Positions 37,613 to 58,870 of a stretch of DNA of 64,000 nt are shown piece by piece. Position numbers and translations under genes: made by a program. Origin of the DNA: Dichotomocladium elegans (lineage: Eukaryota; Mucoromycota; Mucoromycetes; Mucorales; Lichtheimiaceae). The stretch lies in NCBI GenBank assembly GCA_025716815.1, contig JAIXMN010000006.1, positions 372,001 to 436,000 of the forward strand, written 5' to 3'. How positions within the stretch are numbered: the first letter of the stretch is position 1; every line of letters starts with the position of its first letter. Below the pieces are notes generated by a model. That model ran no database searches, was not told where the DNA came from, and saw nothing but the letters and a program-made list of their open reading frames with translations.

Positions 37613-38211
37613 TGATATCTGCTGCAGGAGAAGTGCTCGTTTCAAGCCTGTATATAGCTTCTTTCTTTCTTCATTGTGTCATTTTTTTTATATACTGTGG
37701 ACTCCCACTGGTATTGTATAAAGCACGCCGCTTTACATATAGACGATGAGATGACAGGAAAAGTGTTACCTTTATTCATACGCATAGTATTATCTATTTA
37801 TGATTTGATTCTTTCTATCTCCTTCTATGCCTTAGGATGTTGTAGATATTTATCATCGAGATCGATTATAGCCAGCAAAAATAGTAAAGGAAACCCAAAA
37901 TAATTACTTATTGTTCAAACGGCAAACCCACGATGTGTCGTGCATATATTTTGGCGGTTACACCGTAGCTAATAGTAACGACTCAAGCGTAACAATAGAA
38001 ATAAAGAGTAACGGATAGATGATCTTTATTGTATGGGACTTCTCGGACATTTATACTTTTGCTTTCTAATAATAATCACCGAAAGAGAGAAAAGTGAAAT
38101 AGGCGTGGGCTACACGTCCATCGAGAGGACCGTGAAGAGCGATAAAAATAATGAGGACATTTGATTGGTCGAGCAGTCTGTGCTACGGCAGGTGCCCAAT
38201 TTTCAAAAAGG
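37613..38211. other. intergenic, kinase 3' end to tRNA
   Basis: About 600 bp of AT-rich sequence with polyadenylation-like stretches. No gene seen. Confidence 0.4.
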
Positions 38212-38283
38212 GGGTCGACCGGGATTTGAACCCGGGACCTCTCCGACCCAAACGGAGAATGATAGCCACTACACCATCGACCC
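38212..38283 (-). tRNA. tRNA-Pro(TGG)
   Basis: A 72-nt cloverleaf on the minus strand. The acceptor stem GGGTCGA pairs perfectly with TCGACCC at the 3' end. An A box (TGGTGTAGTGG) and B box (GGTTCAAATCC) are present. The anticodon stem CTCCG/CGGAG encloses the loop TTTGGGT, giving anticodon TGG. There is no intron. A run of five T follows on the minus strand (plus coordinates about 38206-38210), which fits a Pol III terminator. It borders the transposon island. Confidence 0.95.
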
Positions 38284-38524: not shown

Positions 38525-39527
38525 GCTGGTTGAAATTTTACAAGCAATTAGAGACAGGCACACTCCGATAGTCGGTTATTATTGGGGGAACACCGACTAA
38601 AGATGTACCTTGTTCTTCTTTCCAATAATAAAATCCATTCTTATCGAGTCTCGCGAGTCATCATCCCATAAACGCATATCTAGCACCTCTTTTTTTTTTT
38701 TACAGAGTTTGAAGGGGAATTTGCCTGTACTGATTTGGACATTCGCTTGAATATTTGATAGGCTATCAATTAAAACATACACTCTTTTCCAAAACCAAAG
38801 TCGCAGGATGGCAAATCGAATGTCACATGCACGCACGGAAAGATGTCGCACAAAAAAAGCTTGGCAAATCCATTTCTATAAAAATTCATCCTTTTCACTC
38901 TTTCTCTTTTATACACTTTTACAATCTGAAATAAGCAATCTTTTTTTCTACGAAGATGGCCAAGGCCATGTCGTTGATGAGCGTGGCTGTCCTGAACCTA
39001 TGGACTATGTCATTGATGAGGAAATGTACTCACTGCAATCCGTTTGTTCTCACACTGAATATCTGCGTAGCATATCTTCCAAAGATGACTCTGGGCTTGT
39101 TGCTACGCACATTCCCAAACAAAAGGAGACAGACATTCGGATGAAAGAAGCGGGTTTCAAGCGCAGTTACACAGCATACACGGACCAAGACAAGGTCAGA
39201 TTTTTCAAATTGATGTTTGAGGAGGTCTTAAGTGCATCAGCTGCTGCAAAACTGCTAGGAATCCATGTTCGTTCAGCACAGCGATGGGCATTACAGTAAG
39301 AAAAGAACCCTGACAGCATTTTAAGGAACGTAGAAGCAGAGGGCCGATCGTGTAATCTCAATGAAGAGCATTAGAAAGTTACAATACATTTATTGTTCTA
39401 GAATCCAATTGTCGTTTAATATAGCCGTACTCAAAAGAATCCTATATCGAGAAGAGTAAGTTTATTCTTGGAAAGAACAAAGAACTGTCGGAGTGTGCTT
39501 GTCTCTTTTGTCAATGAGCCATTCAGC
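38525..39527 (+). mobile_element. decayed Tc1/mariner-type (DDE) element with inverted ends
   Basis: About 1.0 kb flanked by TA (38523-38524 and 39528-39529) with imperfect terminal inverted repeats. GAGACAGGCACACTCCGATA at 38551 is matched on the opposite strand by GAGACAAGCACACTCCGACA ending at 39505, and similarity continues into a TTCTTTCCAA-ATAA stretch. Inside, 38947-39298 encodes the N-terminal part of a transposase-like protein, including VIDEEMYSLQSV, EAGFKRSYTAYTDQDKVRFF and a helix-turn-helix-like end (ASAAAKLLGIHVRSAQRW). After that the frame breaks with stops near 39297 and 39355. The catalytic DDE part is absent, so this is an internally deleted, non-autonomous copy. Similar N-terminal coding recurs at 57053-57410. 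Confidence 0.75.
38947..39298 (+). pseudogene. transposase N-terminal fragment
   Basis: An open segment with a helix-turn-helix-like region (residues SAAAKLLGIHVRSAQRW) typical of the DNA-binding half of Tc1-type transposases. It has no intact start or catalytic domain and ends at TAA 39297-39299. It is alignable by eye to the fossil at 57053-57410 (both show a DE-G-P-M then V-EE-YSL-SV pattern). Confidence 0.65.
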
Positions 39528-39847
39528 TAGGATATTGTAACGCCGAAGCTGGTTATCAAACGGAATAATGAAGTAATGGCTTTCAGGAGACCACTATGAA
39601 ATTTAATGTTTTCATTGTAATATTCAGAGAAATTATTCATTATGTACCTACACTTCCTGAACGTATGGATAAGGATGACAGCAGTGTCGTGTTTTGTTGT
39701 GTTGTAAGAGACTGAGAAAGTACGAAAAGAAGTACAATCTTCCTACACTACACAAGTGCCGAATTATTCTTGAGATGGTCTCTTGGAATTACTTGTTGGA
39801 ATTGTTTGGGATTTCATTGTTGATTTCAGACCGCCCTCATGTTGATA

Positions 39848-40018
39848 CAGTGGGCGCCCCTTATAGTGATACCCTCGGTTCCAGGAAATCGCATCATTAA
39901 ATGAATTATCACTATAACGAATTGGAATAAGCCCTACCTGGCAATTTTGTTCTTCATAAAGTGTATCGCTATAATGAATTATCATTATAATGAATATCAC
40001 TGTAACGAGCGACCACTG
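39848..40018. mobile_element. 171-bp MITE with TA target duplication (pogo/Tigger-like ends)
   Basis: The left end CAGTGGGCGCCCCTTATAGT and the right end (read on the minus strand) CAGTGGTCGCTCGTTACAGT form a terminal inverted repeat over at least 22 nt with a few mismatches. Both sides are flanked by TA (39846-39847, 40019-40020), the target duplication of Tc1/mariner/pogo elements. The interior is AT-rich with repeated TATAATGAATTATCA-like palindromic units and no coding potential. It lies 245 bp before the Fanzor start codon. Confidence 0.85.
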
Positions 40019-40084
40019 TAAAACCACATTAAGAAACCCAATGGGAAAAAGAGAAACACTGTGGAGATGGATCATTGCTGACAC

Positions 40085-40093
40085 TATAAATAG
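40085..40093 (+). promoter_or_regulatory. TATA box upstream of the Fanzor gene
   Basis: TATAAATAG lies about 170 nt upstream of the Fanzor ATG at 40263 and just outside the right end of the MITE (40018). The match to a core TATA element is good. Its use is inferred. Confidence 0.5.
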
Positions 40094-40262
40094 TGATGCT
40101 CAAGCAAACTGTCCCTTTCCATCATCCACATACAAAACTAGAGCCCATACAGCCTACAGAAAATAACACAGCACCACATTTACGGTTGAAGGTAATACGG
40201 CCGCTTTCATACTCGTCTCTGCGATACTAAGAAATAATATACCCTAGGTCTTCACCCACCAA

Positions 40263-42456
40263 ATGGCCCAACCCCACCGCCCCGTCATTTCCGAAGGCAT
40301 GCGCACTGGCCACAACATTGACCGCACTGGCCGTATAATTGGGGTGAAATCGTCCATACGGGGCATCGGCTGGCGACAGCAGTACCGTGAACGTCTGTAT
40401 CAGTTGGTCGACCTTGTCTACAACACCACAACACAGGCGTACGCGTTCGCCAAATATATTTTCATCAACGAGGCAGCGCGCGATCCAGCTTTTAACATCC
40501 AGGAAAACATCACAGAGAAGTTCTTTTCAGAAGTTTGGCTCTCCATGGTTAACAAAGCCGAACGCCGCACCCAAGGCGAAACCGGCCGCATCCGAGAACT
40601 AATTAATTGCCACAAGGATGAGTGCCTTCGGATATCCGGATACGACAGGCCTGCGTTCCCTTATTCCCAGCAATGTTCTTCTTACGAAGGCACCAAGATT
40701 TATACTGCTTATGTGAATAATATCCACATGCGGTTCGGGCAACACCTTCGGCGTGTCATCAATGTCATACTGAATCTACGTCAGCGAAAAGCCAACCGCA
40801 AGCGAGAGTTAATCGCACAGGGCCTAAGCCCCGATCAGGTACGCCAGGATCTTTATGAAACCATCACCCGGCATGCCACAGGATTCAAGCTAGCAATTGC
40901 CCGTCGAGGTGTTTTGAGGGAAGACATTAACGCCGAACCTGGATTTCTTCGGGAAGCATACGATATCCTACAACCTGTCTTAAACGCTTACCCCCGAAAC
41001 CACCAATTCCAACACCAGAGTATCTATTACGACGCCAAGGCCAATCCTGTTAAGCATTTCAACGCCTTCTTCCAGCTTGCACGTGTTTGTCAACAGAACG
41101 GAATACGCGGATTCTACTGTTTTCCACTTCGTCGCTCGTGGTCACCATGCTACATGGAGATTGATACGAAAATCCTTTGCTACCATATCCTGGGCTGCAA
41201 AATGGAATCCCACACAAGCAATATGGAGTACTGGAGACGTGTTGTAAACCTGAAATCAAGAGCTTTCAAACCCCAAGAATCCGAGCTGCTCCAATTTCGT
41301 GGGACTATTCACACTGACGGCGTCGGTGTTACTGTGTTCAAGAAGACAAATGGCCTTCAATCAGGTTTCGGACAGAGATTTGGCATCCAGAGCGAAGATA
41401 TCGAGTACGTCACCCCGCAGATAGTCCGGAACGAAGACTATAGAGGACAATGGGTCACCATTGATCCTGGCAGAAGGGACCTGTTGTATTGCGTTCATGA
41501 GAACTCGTCACCCGACAACCACCAGACCTTCCGATATACAAAGCAGCTCCAAGATCATACACGGAAGACCAAACGGTATCGCAGACTTCGAGAACGACTC
41601 AAGTTAGAGCGACCCGAGGACGCGTTGGCTGAGCAGAATCTATCTCAATTTCAAAGTCATACGCTTTCCGTGCCCAACTACGACGAATGCCTCGCCGCCA
41701 AGAACAGGGTCTCTGTAGTTCTCAAGTCTTTCTACGCGACAACCACTACGAACCACCCGAACCCACAATTTCTTTTTCGAAAACTTCGCCTGTCAGCGTT
41801 TTACAAGAAGCAGCAAGCAGATGAAAAGCTTCTCGACTCTTTGAATGCGAAGTTTGGCAGTAGGTCCGTTTTCGTGATGGGAAATTGGTCTGCGCCGCAT
41901 ACAAGATATCACGAGCCTATCCGTGGTGTCGGCTTCCGGCGGCTGTTGAAAAAGAACAATTGCAATATTTATTTGATCGACGAGTGCAAGACAAGCAAGT
42001 GCTGCCCTATATGTGACAATGAAAGCCTTGCTACCTATAAAATGGTTCCTAATCCACGCCCATATCGACGACCCGACAATCCGCTCACGATCTGCCATGG
42101 CCTGTTACGGCATGAAGGACGGGCATGTTGTGTTATATTTCCAAAAGATTTTAATATTTTGATGTTTCAATAGATGCACAAATCAAAACTGTACAGCAGG
42201 CATGGCAGAGGGTGTTCGTCAACCAAGGTTATGGAACCGGGATCTGGCGGCGGCTCTTAACATGCATCATATCCTCCGGGGTCTTCGGGAAGATGGTATC
42301 ATCCCAGCAAGGTTCCAGAGAAGAAATGCTGCACAAGCGTCCGCAGCTGGTGGAAGACCACACTCACCTGAACCAGAGCAGCGCAGCGTGAGACCACGAC
42401 GGGCAAGGCCAGGAAGGCCACGAGGTGCACGCTCTGGCGGGTCGAGACGACCGTAA
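40263..42456 (+). CDS. Fanzor (eukaryotic TnpB-like) RNA-guided nuclease
   Basis: Eukaryotic homologue of transposon-encoded TnpB. Family members are RNA-guided DNA nucleases using an omega-RNA. Exons 40263-42109 and 42174-42456 (709 aa), joined by a GC-AG intron (42110-42173). The N-terminal half is the helical, nucleic-acid-binding part. The RuvC-I aspartate is D401 in WVTIDPGRRDLL. A segment RYHEPIRGVGFRRLLKK (E551) and LIDECKTS (D573/E574) covers the RuvC-II region, where Fanzors rearrange the glutamate. The zinc ribbon is CCPIC (581-584), with CHGLLRC (611-617) and C622. The RuvC-III aspartate is D639 in WNRDLAAALNM. The tail is basic and Arg/Pro-rich. Splicing restores the second cysteine pair and RuvC-III; unspliced, the protein stops at 42173 without them. 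615 codons run without a break, so it looks young and possibly active. Confidence 0.94.
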
Positions 42457-42475
42457 CCCCAACCAAGAATTTTCC

Positions 42476-42544
42476 GCGTCAGTTATCGCTGACGCACCCA
42501 GGATAACCACAGCCCTTCGGGGCAAGCCCCCTTCCTTTGGAAGG
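42476..42544 (+). ncRNA. candidate omega-RNA scaffold (three tandem hairpins) 3' of Fanzor
   Basis: Starting 20 nt after the Fanzor stop, three perfect stem-loops lie in a row. 42476-42495 has stem GCGTCAG with loop TTATCG. 42512-42523 is GCCC-TTCG-GGGC, an exceptionally stable UUCG tetraloop. 42530-42544 has stem CCTTCC with loop TTT. In OMEGA systems the guide RNA scaffold is transcribed from the 3' end of the nuclease gene into its downstream flank, and the guide is read from sequence beyond the transposon end. Position and structure density fit that role. No transcript evidence is available here. Confidence 0.55.
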
Positions 42545-43624
42545 ACGGTGTGTTGTAAGTCAACGGGATTGGAGAAGGCGTAATGTTTTCTGCTGACTAA
42601 CAGGGTTTAATCCATGGATGCGAAATCTTTTTACCTATTGATACGACAAATTTATATAATTCTATGCGACATTTTTCTTGTATTTTGCACGACATTATTT
42701 TATCTTGTTTACGACATTTATTTTTGAAAATAAAGTATATGTGCAAATGTGCCATTTGTTCCCTGACGACGCAACCGTAACAAGTTTTGGCTATTGACAT
42801 CCCAGAATGAATAACGAGCTATAACGCATTAACTCGATGCTCGAACGTATAGACATGAGAGGGATTGTAGCAGTAACTGCAGTGACGAGTTGTCCGTTAA
42901 CGGTCGATCAAGGTACTACAAGGATAACGATCATGGGCAAGCCCACATCTCCCGGGGAGGGGGTGGATATTATGTACCCTATTCACTTCCTTGTACGACG
43001 AACCATTGTATCTACCACTGATAACTATATTCTGCTACCGTTACAATATAAGCAATGATGCCCTATGACGCTGTAAATGCCCATGTTGTATTATTATATT
43101 CAGTACTCTTCGCAGCTTCTCCTTGTAAGTGTTCGCACGACGGTGCATGGTATGGATACGTCATGAGCGCAAAACAGTACCATAAAACACATTGTTGACC
43201 AATAAACCTGCCACTTCAATTGTTTTTCTCAAATTGACACTTGTTAGGACTCTCTACCATATCTGGAATGTTTTCCTGTATTCGCGTGTAAGTTGCAAGG
43301 AACCGGATGGTATCATGCTTAATTACACTTTCTACTCTCGATGCAATGCCCAGTGCTGTAGCTACTACCGCTTCACGTGAGGGATACACACTTGAGCCTA
43401 TATTGTGTAGCCTGTTCCTTTGTTCAGGCCATGTCAAAAAATTGACGTGTCCGTAGTAAAATAGGCTACCTTTTTTTTTTTTGGCCGCAAGGCATCGTTG
43501 AAATGATCGTGCATTCATTCCTTCTGTGAAACTTAGTGACTGCCCGACGTGGGGGGGGGGAAAGGCACAAAGTACCACTTTTTTCCACAGGTCTTTCTTT
43601 TCTGGCCTCGCATTTCCCGCCAAC
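42545..43624. other. AT-rich flank between Fanzor and TGT, with short degenerate repeats
   Basis: About 1.1 kb. 42641-42725 contains four loosely spaced copies of a TACGACA/GCGACATT/CACGACATT/TACGACATT motif about 20-25 nt apart, possibly subterminal repeats of the mobile element. The last copy, running into GAAAATAAAGTATA (42726-42739), resembles 59318-59350. There is a GGGG run near 43551-43560. No gene seen. Confidence 0.4.
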
Positions 43625-45159
43625 ATGAAGAGTGCCCTTAAATTCGAAACGCTTGCACGATGCTCAACTACAAAGGCGCGAGCTTCGGTTCTTACGCTGC
43701 CTCATGGTCCCGTCAATACGCCTGTCTTTATGCCTGTGGGAACCCAGGGCACTTTGAAGGGCCTGACACCACGCCAACTCGAAGATCTCAACTGTCAGAT
43801 CATGCTAAACAACACCTATCATTTGGTAAGTTTTCTCGATCGCTAATGTCTCGTGAGAAATAAATGTTCACTCGCGGCTTTACAGGGCTTAAAACCTGGT
43901 CAAGAAACGCTTGATCTTGTCGGTGGGGCACACAAGTTTCAGCAATGGAACCGCAATCTCCTCACGGTAAAATAGATTGTGAAGGGAGGACAGGTCTGGT
44001 AGCTTATACTACGCAGGATAGTGGCGGATTCCAGATGGTTTCTCTCTTGAAGCTTGCCAAGATCACCGAGGTAAAAGAAAAACCATTTAGAAGAACAAAG
44101 AAATTCAGTACTGATTTTGCTGCGATAGGAAGGAGTCCAGTTTGCTTCACCGCATGACGGATCGTTGATGATGCTGACACCGGAGCATTCGATGTCTCTG
44201 CAAAACTCGATTGGTGCGGATATCATGATGCAGCTTGACGATGTGATTTCCTCACTGACAACCGGGCCACGGGTTGAGGAAGCCATGTGGCGATCGATTC
44301 GATGGCTTGATCGTTGCATTGCTGCACATAAGAATCCAGATCGGCAGAACCTTTTTGCAATCATTCAGGGCGGCCTGAACAAGGATTTGCGGAAGAAATG
44401 CGTGGAGGAAATGGTGAAGCGTGACACACCCGGTTACGCAGTTGGTGGACTTAGCGGTGGAGAGGAGAAGGATGTTTTCTGGCAAATGTAAGTTGCGATC
44501 CAATGACGAGGCGATCAAAGACTGATCCCTTATCTATCTCGTTTTAGCGTTACACTCTGTACCGATCTTTTGCCAAAGACCAAACCCATTTACTGTATGG
44601 GTGTAGGGTGAGTAAGGGAGTTAGAGAGCGTTTAAGACACGATTGACGGAGTATTGTACTGTATTAGCTATGCCGAAGACCTGGTGGTGTGCGTTGCACT
44701 AGGTGTAGACATGTTCGATTGTGTTTTCCCTACCCGCACTGCTGTAAGTTCAAATATCTAATACTGAACAAGGTCAAATTTGTGCTAATAGTTTGAGATT
44801 GTTAGCGCTTCGGTAATGCGCTGACAATGAAAGGAACCCTTTCGCTCAAGTCTGGCAAGTTCGCGAATGACTTCGGGCCAATTGAGGAAGGATGCGACTG
44901 CTCAACATGCAAAGACTACACCCGCTCTTACGTTCACCTTGTTACCACCCGTGACACGGTAGGCTGCCATCTTGTCTCCATTCACAACGTAGCCTTCCAG
45001 TTACGATTAATGCGGGAGATGCGAGAAGCCATCATCGCGGACAATTTCCCAGCATGGATCATACAATTCTTTGATGGATACTTTGGAGGTGATAAGAGCC
45101 GATACCCAACGTGGGCTGTTAACGCACTCAAGAGTGTCAATGTGGACCTGATGGCATAA
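43625..45159 (+). CDS. QTRT1: queuine tRNA-ribosyltransferase catalytic subunit (eukaryotic TGT)
   Basis: Exchanges guanine-34 for queuine in tRNAs with GUN anticodons; in eukaryotes it works as a QTRT1/QTRT2 heterodimer. Seven exons: 43625-43825, 43886-43966, 44017-44070, 44129-44487, 44548-44607, 44668-44743, 44806-45159 (394 aa). Substrate and catalytic landmarks are present: [38 protein letters not shown] (catalytic Asp), [31 protein letters not shown], and the nucleophile region [14 protein letters not shown]. Zinc is bound by CDCSTC and a downstream His. All introns are short (about 50-65 nt) and in consistent phase. Queuine is salvaged, not made, by eukaryotes, so the gene implies uptake from diet or bacteria. 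Confidence 0.96.
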
Positions 45160-47659: not shown

Positions 47660-48890
47660 ATGCCCCGCCGGATGTTGCGATTCCGTTTCGACCTCTCTTC
47701 CATGGCTCATCAAGTACGGGCACGATCGGTCAATCTACAAAGGACAAACGGTGCTAGATTCGAATACACAAGCAAGTCGATGAAAAGATTCATACCATAA
47801 TCCATGAAAAAGAGAGGCCAAGAATGGATTTTATAAAGGTGAAATATTCGCTCAGAACCTCTATTATTTATGAGAAATCAGTCATCCATGTGATTAACAA
47901 TGCTAAAACAAGTGTTGTGACGTATCTGATGATATCCTCCTTCTGAAGACTTGCATCTACGACTGTTATCGTTGCTATTTCATGATGCTTCTTGTTCATC
48001 ATCCCACAGGTTTTTTGCAGACAAGTTTAAACTGGCCATTTGATTTTTTCGTATTATCGACATGATCAAAATCCATCCCGGTGATGGCTTGGCTACAAGA
48101 CATTACATCAGGGTAATCCAATTTATTAGAATGTGAAAGACGAAGTGACATTGCCTGATTACGAGTCGGTGTTGTGCGCCACGGGCTGCGTATTAAAAGT
48201 TTCATATCAATGAACATGTGTATACACATTATCAATGATAAACAAACATACACTCTATAGAGAACTCGTTCTATACAATCAGACAAATAACCATTCATGC
48301 TACATTCTTGTAGAGTTATTTCTTCGTTTTATCCGAGATCCAATCTCATGCTGCATCACCGCATATAGAAGTAATCCTCTTTAGATCTCAACATATTCAA
48401 AGAAATCTGTGATCCGATATCTTATCGTATTCACTATTTTCCTCCTTTTTTTAACACATTCATATTCATATACGTACCGTGATGGTCTCTGTAGAATTAT
48501 CACAAGTCAGAACATAGTTTTCCCATTACGACAGCTACTCTGAAACCTGTAAGAATGAGAGACGAATCCTTCGACATCACTCAATTTTAAGCTATTCGAT
48601 GCTCCACTAATTCGGGTCATCGGTGTCCCGCTTTCCAAGAACCTATTGTGTTTTACTTTGCTCTTCGCAACCGACCAAGCACTGTTTAATAGGATTGAGT
48701 TCAGATAAATAGTATGAAGATAGGAACATCGATATCCTCGAGACTCGGGATATTTAAAGATGGAAGCCTTTTTTTGATCGACATTTTTCGCCGTGCATGC
48801 GACATTTGCTTTGTCATCACGCGTAAAGATTTCTGGGCAAAATGCGACCACCGAACTAACCAGGCACGACTCGATTTTGGAAAAGAGTGC
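47660..48890 (-). mobile_element. 3' part of a decayed DDE transposon, inverted relative to the 57-59 kb copy
   Basis: On the minus strand 48851-48507 encodes a worn C-terminus of a Tc1-type transposase (ESRGYRCSYL, then LNSAWSVAKSKVKHNRFLES, ISGASNSLKLSDVEGFVSHS), where functional relatives have PPYSPELNPIE before the final DDE residue. That motif is degenerate here. Downstream to about 47660 is a 3' tail closely similar to 57787-58870 on the plus strand, including RNA-like blocks such as TTATCATTGATAATGTGTATAC. The coding homology and tail together make an approximately 1.1-kb inverted repeat pair separated by about 9 kb. Confidence 0.75.
48507..48851 (-). pseudogene. DDE transposase C-terminal fossil
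   Basis: An open but truncated frame. The core NPIE-type catalytic motif is replaced (LNSILLNSAWSV), so the last acidic residue is lost. It has no start and no N-terminal domain. Related sequence occurs at about 57787-57950 on the plus strand. Confidence 0.65.
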
Positions 48891-49133: not shown

Positions 49134-49880
49134 TTAGTTGTCTATTGGGATATCTGCCTCATCCTCGGCAGGGGCAGATCCGGCAGTAGCACCAGCCGCA
49201 CCACCAGCGCTTGCTTCCATGGCTTGTTGCTAAGTGGATGGGATTAATGAGTATCGTTGACACCTCCCGTTCATGTTGTCGTTGTTTTACCTCAATAGCC
49301 AAGATGTTGACGATAACAGTAAAGACGGGCTCGGGGATAGATTTTTGGTAGATCACGATGAGCTCCATAGGCGCAGGGTAGACCTTGAGCGCCTTGTAGA
49401 AGGGCAGAACAGCCTGCTCATAGAACTCCGGACCTTTCGTGCACAAAGCCTCACCCTCGGCCACCTGGTTCATGAAATACTTTTCTCTCTCCTCGGGCGA
49501 TGTGGGATACGTTTCGCGAGCAGCAGCAACAATGACATTTTCAATCAACTTGATTTTGTTCGCCTTATCCTCCGCCTGGCTTTCCTGGGCTGCTTTGGCG
49601 GCTTGCTTACGTTGGCGTTCTGAATAATGATGAAGAATCGCGCATGTACATGAGTGCGATGAGCGGGAGGGCATTCTTCCTTGCTAGGGCAAGTAGATCG
49701 TTGCAGACATGCGAAATAGTGCCGCAGAGACACACGCATCGTCCGTTAATATACAAACTTACTCAGCTTTTTGCGGAAATCAGGGTCGCTGCGACGGCTG
49801 TAGTCGAAATAGATGATGTAACCGAGACCGAGTGCGGCGATCGCACCTGTCGCCAAAAGGGCCACTTGCTGTGCTCGCAT
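49134..49880 (-). CDS. TOM20: mitochondrial import receptor TOM20
   Basis: Outer-membrane receptor recognising presequences for the TOM complex. Exons 49880-49763, 49619-49291, 49229-49134 (180 aa). The N-terminal anchor (VALLATGAIAALGLGYIIYF) is followed by DYSRRSDPDFRKKL, a charged KRQRKQAAKAAQESQAEDKA segment, and the TPR-like receptor core (EEREKYFMNQVAEGEALCTK, FYEQAVLPFYKALKVYP, PMELIVIYQKSIPEPVFTVI). The C-terminus is short, Ala/Gly-rich and acidic (EDEADIP), as in fungal Tom20. The start codon is the only in-frame ATG ahead of the anchor. Confidence 0.95.
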
Positions 49881-51523
49881 AGCTGAAGGAAAAGAGGAGG
49901 AAATTGTTTTTTTCCCTTCCCACTTTCTGTCGGGGATGCCTTGTTGAATTTTTCTCCATCGACCCCGACATGAGCTATTGGAATTTCCCCCAGCTATTCA
50001 GCCAGTGGAATTTCTCTGTTCGCGGAATATGAAATTGCGTGACATCGCATTGTGTGCTTTCCCCATCATGATTTGTTTGCTTGTTGCTAGTCGCTACGTC
50101 ATCGTTATTCTGACATCAAGAGAGGCATTGAAATCACCGAGTGCTTCAGAACGCATCATTGTCAGCAGCGAGGGCAGTGTTTCTTTGTGCTTCGATGACT
50201 TCTCATTATGTGCTCTGTAAATAGGAATATTGTCAGCCACCATGCCCACACCCCCACAAACAAAGGCTTTCCTTCCATTGATGACGATAGGCGGGTGTTC
50301 CAACGCATGAAGGTCTTCATTGCGTAATACTATACTATACTGCACTTGGGATGGCACTTCACTCATCAGTAGCATATGCTTGACATTCATCTAGGTCATA
50401 TGCTGCTCAACTTGTTGCTTGACGAATGCAGAGGCTATCGGTAGAATTTTTTCGCTGGCAACCTGTTGGCAGGCGAAGGGGATTTAAACATTATATGCGC
50501 TTTGGCTGTATTCCAAAGAAAATCGCAATATGTGGGCTCAAGATCTCTTTGTTAATAATAAACCCATAGGAATGCTTAGCAGAAGGCAAAAGAAGTCACG
50601 AGCGAGTTGCTAGCGCAAAGGCTTCCTCCTGCAAATCCCCTAAAGAACTTTCCTGCCCTGTTATCGCAGGGTTAAGATGCGATAAGCAAGATGCTTGGGC
50701 CACTCTCCACTCGATGGCTGGAGGGGAGGCACCCCATAGGTGAGTCGGACGCGAAGAGAGCAATGCAGCCTGCTGCGTGACAACAATAGGCTCGATCTGC
50801 TACCATCATTTCATTTTATGTTCATCGGCTTATTACACGTATGAATTGGCTCTACTGATGGCCTGATATTCATGATCGCATTGACGCAAACTTGATTGAA
50901 AATAAAAAAAGTACTAAATAATAAAAAAAAATACCTGTTCGGCAATCGGCGGAGTTTTCTTTTTTTTGCTACAATAACCCCTTCAAGTTCATGCATCCCC
51001 TGCTAATTCGATCAATGTGCCTCCATGTTGGGGGGCTCTTCTCGATGTTTTTGTAGATTATATCTCTGTTGAATAATTTTGAATATATCAGAAGCACTAG
51101 TGATTGAAAAATAATATGGAAGAAATCTTACAGTCCGTCATTCTAACACAATCACTGCCTGTCCATTACCGTTTCATTTTTTTTATCAGCAAGTTTTCCG
51201 TGCATAACAAGGACATGTCGACTAGCCGGGCTAGAGGATGAACAACGCCCGCTGACGGGGAAAGTGATTGGTTCACTTGTATGAAGATAGTTACCAAGTT
51301 TGGGGAGCAGTTGCCCTGATGATGGTTTCGCATTACTTGGATACCCCACATTTTCTTAAAACCACCCGTCACTTTTTTCTTTGATATGTATATAAAATGT
51401 GCAGAATTCGCTAGGGGGGTATATGGAGATGCAGAAAAAAAAAAGCACGAACTTGTACTGCATATTTTATTTACCATTACTACGCACTGTGCATCTATTT
51501 TCTCTTTAAAAAAGGCGGGAACT
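49881..51523. other. intergenic region TOM20 to PUT1
   Basis: About 1.6 kb. A 98-codon minus-strand frame (50390-50094) has some protein-like composition (RNEDLHALEHPPIVINGRKA) but no recognised domain and no neighbouring exon I could join. It may be a relic. Poly-A/T runs occur around 50925-50965 and 51436. No RNA gene seen. Confidence 0.35.
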
Positions 51524-57052: not shown

Positions 57053-58870
57053 AATTCTTTACGATGAACAGGGGCCATGCTATGCTGCTGATGAGCATGG
57101 TTACCCTTTTTCTATGTACTGTGTTGTTAACGAAGAAACGTACTCGCTTCGATCTGTTTTTGTATGCGTACAGAGGACCGTCGTAGTCTATGTCGCAAAC
57201 GGAGACTTCTCTAAGCTCGCTGCTGCGCAGATCCCTAACCGAAAGCATATGGCAAGAAGCAGGTTTCAAAAGAGCCCGCGTGCAACTATGGACCCATATG
57301 TATACGCTGACCAAGGTTTCTCAGAGCTCGACGTTTGCGAGGATTTTCAGTGCATCAGCTTCAGCAAAACAGCTAGGAACCAACATGTCCTTTACTAGCA
57401 CAGCAAGGTGAGATTGCGTCATGAAAAGCGAACTGATAGCGCTTATAAGAAACGCAAAACTCACGTATTCTCAATGAAGGACATGCGGATGTCAACGCTA
57501 AACTGTTCATTAGAAGGAGAGGTTTGCCAATTTTAGCCGTAGACAGGAAGAGCGATCCAAGCGCGCCTCAACCTATATGGCATATGTGGCATTGATTTCA
57601 GGAAACATAAAGGCTGAGGTTATTTTTGAATATATCGAAACTCAAAAACGGCGATGTGTGCCTATTGCCGCTTTACTCGTACCAACTCATTCCTATTGAG
57701 TAGATTGCCGAGAGAGCAGCATAAACATACGAATGACTGGAACGTCGTAACTAACTGCTGTCATAGGGAGTTCGATTTTTGATCGATTGTGAAGAGCAGA
57801 GTAAAACGCAATAGGTTCTTGGAAAGCGATACAATGATGACCCGAATCAGTGAAGCATCGAATAGCTTAAAATTGAGCGATGTCGAAGGATTCGTCTCTC
57901 ATTCTTACAGGTTTCAAAGTAGCTGTCGTAATGGGAAAACTATGATCTGACTGGCGATATTTTTACAAAGACCATCAAGGTACGTATATGGATATGAATA
58001 TGTTAAAAAAAGGAGGAAAATAATGAATACGATAAGATATCAGATCACAGACTTCTTTGGATATGTTGAGATCTAGAGAGGATTACTTCTATATGCGGTG
58101 ATGCAGCATAAGATTGGATCTCGAATAAAACGAAGAAATAGCTCTGCAAGTATGTAGCATTAATGGTTATTTGTCTGATCGTATAGAGCAACTCATCGGC
58201 GGAGCAGATAAAGAACTTCTTTATGCAGAGGAAGGGCTGCGAATTCTTTGTAGAGTGCATGTTTGTTTATCATTGATAATATGTATACACATGTTCATTG
58301 ATATGAAACAATAAGTTTGAGGCATTAGTGGTCTAATATGCAGTCCATGGCGCACAACGACACGGACTCTCTTGTTACCTCATAATCAGGCAATGTCACC
58401 TCGTCTGTCATATTCTGATAAATTGGATTACCCCTGATGTAATGTTCTGTAGCTAAGTCATCGCCGGGATGGATTTTGATCATGTCGGTGATACGAAAAA
58501 ATCAAATTACCCGTTTAAACTTGTCTGTAACAAACCTGTGGGCTGATAAACAAGAAGCATTGTGAAATAGCAACGATGAGCGTTGTAGATGCAAGTCTTC
58601 AGAAGGAGGATACATCTGATACGTTGTTTCAGCATTGTCAATCACATGTATGAGTGGTATCGCATAAATAATAGAGGTTCTGAGCGGACTATTTCCTCTT
58701 TATCAAAATCCATCCTTGGCTTCTCTTCCATAGGTTATCCCGTATGAATTTTTTTATCGACTTGTTTGTTATTCGAATCTGGCACCTTCTGTCGTTTACA
58801 GATGAACCAATCGTACATGTACTTGATGAGCCATGGAAGAGAGGTCAAAACGAAATCGCATCATCTGGCG
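57000..58870 (+). mobile_element. decayed DDE transposon, longest copy in the window
   Basis: 57053-57410 resembles the transposase N-terminus at 38947-39298 (shared DE-G-P-M, EE-YSL-SV and QEAGFKR words) but with several frameshifts. 57580-57680 has a fragment (SGNIKAEVIFEYIETQ). 57787-57950 resembles the C-terminal portion at 48690-48507 (SVKSRVKRNRFLES-like, then ASNSLKLSDVEGFVSHSYRF). From 57950 to 58870 the noncoding tail is nearly colinear with 48500-47660 read on the opposite strand, with a few indels. No intact reading frame survives. Confidence 0.75.

Follow-up and report, generated by a model that had tools for sequence, protein, structure and literature searches.

Fanzor1 genes have been described in mariner-type elements that are flanked by TA duplications and occur with or without a transposase, and no guide RNA was known for Fanzor1 in 2013, according to the available text of Bao and Jurka (PMC3627910). 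For SpuFz1 of Spizellomyces punctatus, the available text describes a 75-nt scaffold that includes the inverted repeat and ends at the right end of the transposon, with the host flank serving as the guide (PMC10432273). The omega-RNA of the Parasitella parasitica Fanzor1 (PpFz1) is given as 75 nt long, with a 7-bp SL1 and a 4-bp SL2, and introns go unmentioned in the main text as available (PMC11423790). In the accessible portions of both studies (Saito 2023, PMC10432273; Xu 2024, PMC11423790), the words splice, splicing and intron never concern the guide RNA. Transposons engaged in RNA splicing are represented by the bacterial IStrons, which, as far as the source text available goes, undergo group I self-splicing as whole elements (PMC4227781). 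Among the matches listed for Fanzor or TnpB combined with splice or intron, titles and abstract openings indicated no spliced guide RNA; one match treats circular archaeal omega-RNAs and another concerns omega-RNA that TnpB makes from the mRNA encoding it. Searches for Fanzor with Mucoromycota and for Dichotomocladium with transpos gave no literature match. A 2024 report is said to describe a conflict between group I introns and TnpB guide RNAs.

We analyzed a 64-kb stretch of the genome of Dichotomocladium elegans, a member of the Lichtheimiaceae (hereafter, the window), in which no Fanzor was found besides the gene at 40263-42456 (Table 1). The first-pass annotation had read this gene as a Fanzor nuclease with 615 uninterrupted codons followed by one intron, with its RuvC landmarks and zinc-ribbon cysteines in place, and had named a profile search as the check. 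That reading is borne out. The joined exons encode a product of 709 aa, whose best match among PDB sequences in a phmmer search is PpFz1 (9cf0, E 1.5e-115), followed by SpuFz1 (8gkh, E 1.7e-38), the sole further match up to E 1 being a designed filament (E 0.15). The RuvC D-E-D residues are D401 (VTIDPG), E574 (LIDECKTS) and D639 (WNRD), and the spacing of E574, C581 and C584 fits the signature ExxxxxxCxxC, described in the available text of PMC10711439, which places the RuvC E just before the zinc finger. To the four-cysteine zinc ribbon, exon 1 contributes C581/C584 (CPIC) and exon 2 contributes CTNQNC, the second cysteine pair being available only after splicing. Several annotated relatives match this two-exon layout, with exon 2 starting at window position 42172 or later. 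Pfam and NCBIfam searches with the window Fanzor gave no meaningful family; most of the 112 relatives found carry the precomputed Pfam label PF26935. Many of these relatives come from Mucorales, Syncephalis and Coemansia, and Mucorales is the order of both D. elegans and Parasitella parasitica. By homology and active-site residues, the window gene is a genuine Fanzor1, a known kind of protein that is common in the D. elegans genome. PpFz1 is its closest solved relative (PDB 9cf0-9cf3; available text of PMC11423790), and its omega-RNA resembles the scaffold predicted here in having a short SL2 besides the 7-bp SL1. Within its RuvC part, PpFz1 has about 93 residues that find no alignment in the window Fanzor; they are probably its FRI domain.

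Table 1. Coordinates of the features of the Fanzor1 locus and its surroundings in the window.
Feature	Position	Strand	Details
tRNA-Pro (TGG)	38210-38283		just upstream of element
Left TA target-site duplication	38778-38779	.	CA before it at 38776-38777
Whole element	38780-42735	+	3,956 bp; sharp boundaries against other copies; short imperfect inverted repeats
Left part, autonomous-element type	38790-39381	+	N-terminal remnant of DDE transposase; stop at 39299
Fanzor1 exon 1	40263-42109	+	615 codons plus 2 bases; D401, E574, first CXXC
Coding intron	42110-42173	+	GC...AG in window copy
Fanzor1 exon 2	42174-42456	+	second cysteine pair, D639, stop TAA included
Predicted guide-RNA scaffold	42470-42554	+	TTTTCC, SL1 42476-42495 (7 bp, loop TTATCG), SL2 region
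Predicted guide-RNA intron	42555-42735	+	181 nt; acceptor AG 42734-42735 ends on element's last base
Donor GTAAGT	42555-42560	+	predicted 5' splice site
Branch motif TGACTAAC	42594-42601	+	
Right TA target-site duplication	42736-42737	.	
Host flank, predicted guide	42738-42752	+	inferred; length from the 14-15 nt of SpuFz1
TGT (queuine tRNA-ribosyltransferase) exons	43502-45159		directly downstream of element
Transposase fragment	48513-48776	minus	related to L051
Ghost guide-RNA locus, family E	50649-50911	+	donor GTGAGT at 50740, AG at 50910-50911
Transposase fragment	57777-57932	plus	related to L051

The proposal that the Fanzor sits in a transposon is confirmed by a TA-flanked element with sharp ends. 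It has the TA duplication and inverted repeats of Tc1/mariner elements, the repeats being short and imperfect, and its own transposase is reduced to an N-terminal remnant, the DDE_3 domain being found in the related locus L051 (C44), which carries an open 475-aa DDE_3 transposase. The window locus is probably a Tc1/mariner-type transposon carrying Fanzor1, like the elements with or without transposase in the available text of PMC3627910. The left 590 bases of the window element share 95.3% DNA identity with L051, and the same stretch is about 81% identical in the three Fanzor copies where it was separately aligned; because of this difference, the element is, on these alignments, a mosaic whose transposase is a remnant. 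A short inverted-repeat piece lies inside the element upstream of the Fanzor (39848-40022); blastn gaps suggest that L018 and L019 lack it and that at least part of it is missing from L021.

Both ends were found in 21 of 32 examined loci, and in all 21 a TA stands on both sides, YA precedes the left TA, and the right flank is different. The resulting YATA resembles the CATA motif of SpuFz1, and the CATA at the left end of the window element is a candidate target-adjacent motif; since a T also follows the right TA in 19 of the 21 copies, YATA may instead reflect a target preference of the transposase. The likeness to SPu-1/SpuFz1, as described in the available parts of PMC10432273 and PMC3627910, extends to a TA-flanked inverted-repeat Fanzor1 element in many copies with ghost loci.

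A six-frame search of the 39.4-Mb assembly gave 78 stretches matching the Fanzor, a lower bound. Residues 1-638 are covered with an open frame by the window copy and 16 others, 13 of which (L002-L013, L017) are 99.1-99.7% identical to one another and 95.7-96.1% identical to the window copy, which is a diverged outlier. Given this abundance, the window copy is not a lone survivor. The surroundings, described as a transposon island with decayed neighbours, are not dominated by decayed transposons either: besides the tRNA-Pro gene and a few transposase remnants, they contain ORFs read as ABC transporters, proline dehydrogenase, GDA1_CD39, TGT, APP1 and a kinase. At L034 (C57:1658000-1664500), an open 609-aa Fanzor frame is accompanied by a convergent transposase on the opposite strand, a pair that is a candidate self-sufficient element and can be set against those in the available text of PMC3627910.

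Whether the window copy is intact, as first annotated, is a separate matter. The open frame and the landmark residues stand; "intact" becomes uncertain because the coding intron opens with GC, whereas GT stands in 17 of the 18 other copies aligned and AT in the remaining one (L007). In family B, whose protein is 55% identical, the intron appears to have the same position. Unspliced, the frame ends at 42171-42173 and yields a product without D639 and half of the zinc ribbon, and the window copy further carries a Y575C change adjoining E574. We hold it at slightly under an even chance that the window Fanzor is dead, its coding intron being beyond splicing, a reading that concerns this copy and not the family. 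Against it, GC-AG introns can work, and an in-frame GT lies 6 bases upstream of the coding donor, the use of which would cost two residues. Also against it, exon 1 of the window copy carries 18 private changes that are synonymous and 12 that are non-synonymous, which give a dN/dS of 0.19 (0.13 for the pooled core copies) in a comparison of copies picked for open frames. As judged from these substitutions, the lineage of the window copy shows purifying selection, in line with the selection suggested earlier. The activity of this copy thus appears to be the weakest part of the original reading; the copy is doubtful and the Fanzor family sound.

The first-pass annotation had also placed an omega-RNA downstream of the gene, and the region bears a covarying, scaffold-like hairpin at that place. 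The predicted scaffold starts with TTTTCC 13 bases past the Fanzor stop and continues into a 7-bp hairpin with a TTATCG loop. In family B, the same start lies directly 3' of the stop (six bases in L032), and the hairpin keeps the TTATCG loop, with compensatory stem changes. On eight distinct rows, 56 of 56 SL1 cells pair, and two pairs have changed on both sides. A covariance model found more scaffolds in L034, in L035 and at window position 50644 (E about 2e-5 to 1e-2), and the model R1 found no such scaffold behind the Fanzors at L034 and L037. A family D scaffold (L034:1-51 minus, L052) lies beside another Fanzor, with an upstream remnant that reads like WNRD-LAA. Rfam matched nothing between window positions 42000 and 43000 at E values up to 1, and across the whole window a tRNA was the only hit at gathering score.

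The pattern TTTCCN7TTATCG occurs 198 times in the genome, compared with 29 for the reversed pattern. Among the 100 places listed from these hits, 53 have a stem of neither the A nor the B type, and 40 of these 53 were read, one of which (L070) coincides with a place in L042. Pairing at 6 or 7 of 7 positions was seen in 23 of these 40 sites, a degree of pairing expected by chance in about one site in 75 (6/16 per pair). In 28 hand-chosen rows, comprising 22 of the 40 sites and six others, 88.3% of cells are paired, against 64.7% after shuffling and at most 46.9% with slid partners, and two-sided changes occur in 6 of the 7 stem pairs; this choice excluded 12 sites with 4 or fewer of 7 pairs, which look unrelated, and six sites pairing at 7/7 that were taken for repeats, three of which have stems absent from the set. 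Five pattern sites (L062, L080, L083, L089, L092), with the sequence TTTCCTTCTC[CG]GTTATCG, start alike and are unpaired; they look like a different dispersed repeat. The well-paired stems, with their invariant loop, fall into five families (A, B, D, E and F), and C is a decayed fragment. The published PpFz1 layout fits the scaffolds of B and D best; those of A and E are longer and have a larger second domain. The hairpin, as conserved across these families, fits a predicted Fanzor guide-RNA scaffold.

Past the scaffold, families A, B, C and D share one order of motifs: GTAAGT, GACTAA within a branch-like motif, a long AG-free stretch, and finally AAAATAAAG and the TA duplication. Family E has a different right end and shows a parallel order, in which GTGAGN and a motif resembling GCTAAC precede a stretch with almost no AG, and an AG stands before the TA. 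With right-end, donor and branch patterns defined after viewing the sequences, and with family C added to the set by hand, donor and branch motif are present in 45 of 46 loci with a recognized right end; a further 17 of 63 records were broken or without a right end by a pattern that missed at least L011 and L014. An open family-B Fanzor frame, L032, is without donor and branch. In 40 of the 45 loci, no AG occurs from six bases past the branch motif to the terminal AG, the exceptions being L018 with four and L053, L054, L057 and L082 with one each; the omission of these six bases leaves aside an AG that immediately follows the branch motif of families A and D and would need skipping. The spliceosome scans from the branch site to the first usable AG, and splicing to the last base of the element would demand just such an AG-free stretch. 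The distance from branch motif to acceptor, 90-146 nt, is long for a fungal intron.

The depletion is specific to this stretch. In ten hand-picked representatives, which are not independent in that A-D and E make up two right-end groups, AG occurs 4 times between branch and acceptor, compared with 46.0 expected, while GA (54), CT (60) and TC (64) show no depletion there. Nor is AG depleted between donor and branch (38 vs 36.4 expected) or in the scaffold (39 vs 37.9), and it is mildly low in the host flank (42 vs 54.6). This profile bears on the possibility that the guide RNA is left unspliced, with a scaffold of about 265 nt that takes in the inverted repeat and extends as far as the right end, and the flank as guide, as in SpuFz1. 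Such an RNA would accord with the inverted repeat being part of the SpuFz1 scaffold in the available text of PMC10432273, and with families A and B being alignable up to the right end, with about one aligned position in three differing between them there; it leaves the donor, the branch motifs and a depletion of AG confined to the post-branch stretch unexplained, and we regard it as unlikely.

A guide might also be fixed inside the element, directly behind SL2 and identical within each family, a reading first considered because of the large distance between scaffold and right end, and one under which a PpFz1-sized scaffold would stop at that point. The bases behind SL2 agree across families mainly in GTRAG, however, which is the splice-donor consensus, making this reading highly improbable. 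Alternatively, the terminal acceptor might make no guides and serve host genes, by softening insertions, or tidy the Fanzor 3' UTR; introners are described, in the text available, as coming from DNA transposons, and IStrons splice as well. Here the donor is internal and immediately follows a covarying scaffold, both in families that bear a Fanzor and in ghost families, and a role restricted to host genes or the 3' UTR is, in our judgment, decidedly unlikely.

We instead lean towards a guide RNA assembled by the spliceosome, in which the terminal 3' splice site would fuse the scaffold to each new flank. The spliceosome would remove the transposon end and join the scaffold to the host flank, which would become the guide, and this joining would place the guide as in SpuFz1. 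There are two differences from the available descriptions of SpuFz1: the motif is YATA in D. elegans instead of CATA, and the inverted repeat, which in SpuFz1 belongs to the scaffold, seems to be spliced out. The IStrons are similar in that a transposon engages in RNA splicing; there, according to the available text of PMC4227781, a group I intron comprises the whole element, whereas the D. elegans intron appears to be of the spliceosome type and limited to the right end, in agreement with the Rfam result above. One refinement was rejected, namely that the UA of the duplication always closes SL2: compared with the unspliced GU, UA gives the better fold in 7 of 12 exons, an equal one in 2 and a poorer one in 3, which include the window exon. 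A search for related DNA in viral and prokaryotic contigs found no relative.

The window also contains a ghost guide-RNA locus, which keeps the arrangement of scaffold, donor and terminal AG and whose sequence has 43 genome matches, itself and fragments included. A 15-nt inverted arm at 49537-49551 is a possible left end of this ghost, a match for which chance is not excluded.

Taken together, these data support a model that we consider probable as a whole, that of a Fanzor1 transposon with a guide RNA spliced as scaffold, UA and flank. The Fanzor1-carrying element would be moved in trans, probably by a related full-length DDE_3 transposase. One transcript would contain the Fanzor coding region and, just past its stop, the short scaffold, with about 180 nt of transposon right end between the scaffold and the host flank. 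A spliceosomal intron would begin where the scaffold stops and finish precisely on the final base of the element (AG|TA); the mature RNA would then read scaffold, UA and host flank, the flank acting as the guide. The assembled RNP would cleave the insertion site where it is still empty, at YATA plus the flank, and repair of the break would restore the element by copying, as proposed for TnpB, thereby helping to keep the transposon. Ghost elements without a Fanzor would supply extra guides.

What is new in this account is the apparent spliced guide RNA, which rests on comparative sequence evidence. If it is true, the loci of this genome with a Fanzor or a ghost element, well over a hundred in number, could each make their own guide, and the guide RNA would stay short although the DNA transposon keeps the inverted repeat at its end. 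For genome editing, the work contributes a family of Fanzors about 700 aa in length, many of whose open copies are nearly identical. RNA-guided homing would be tied to the splicing machinery, giving Fanzors a testable role for their transposons, in which each copy predicts one junction, one guide and one target.
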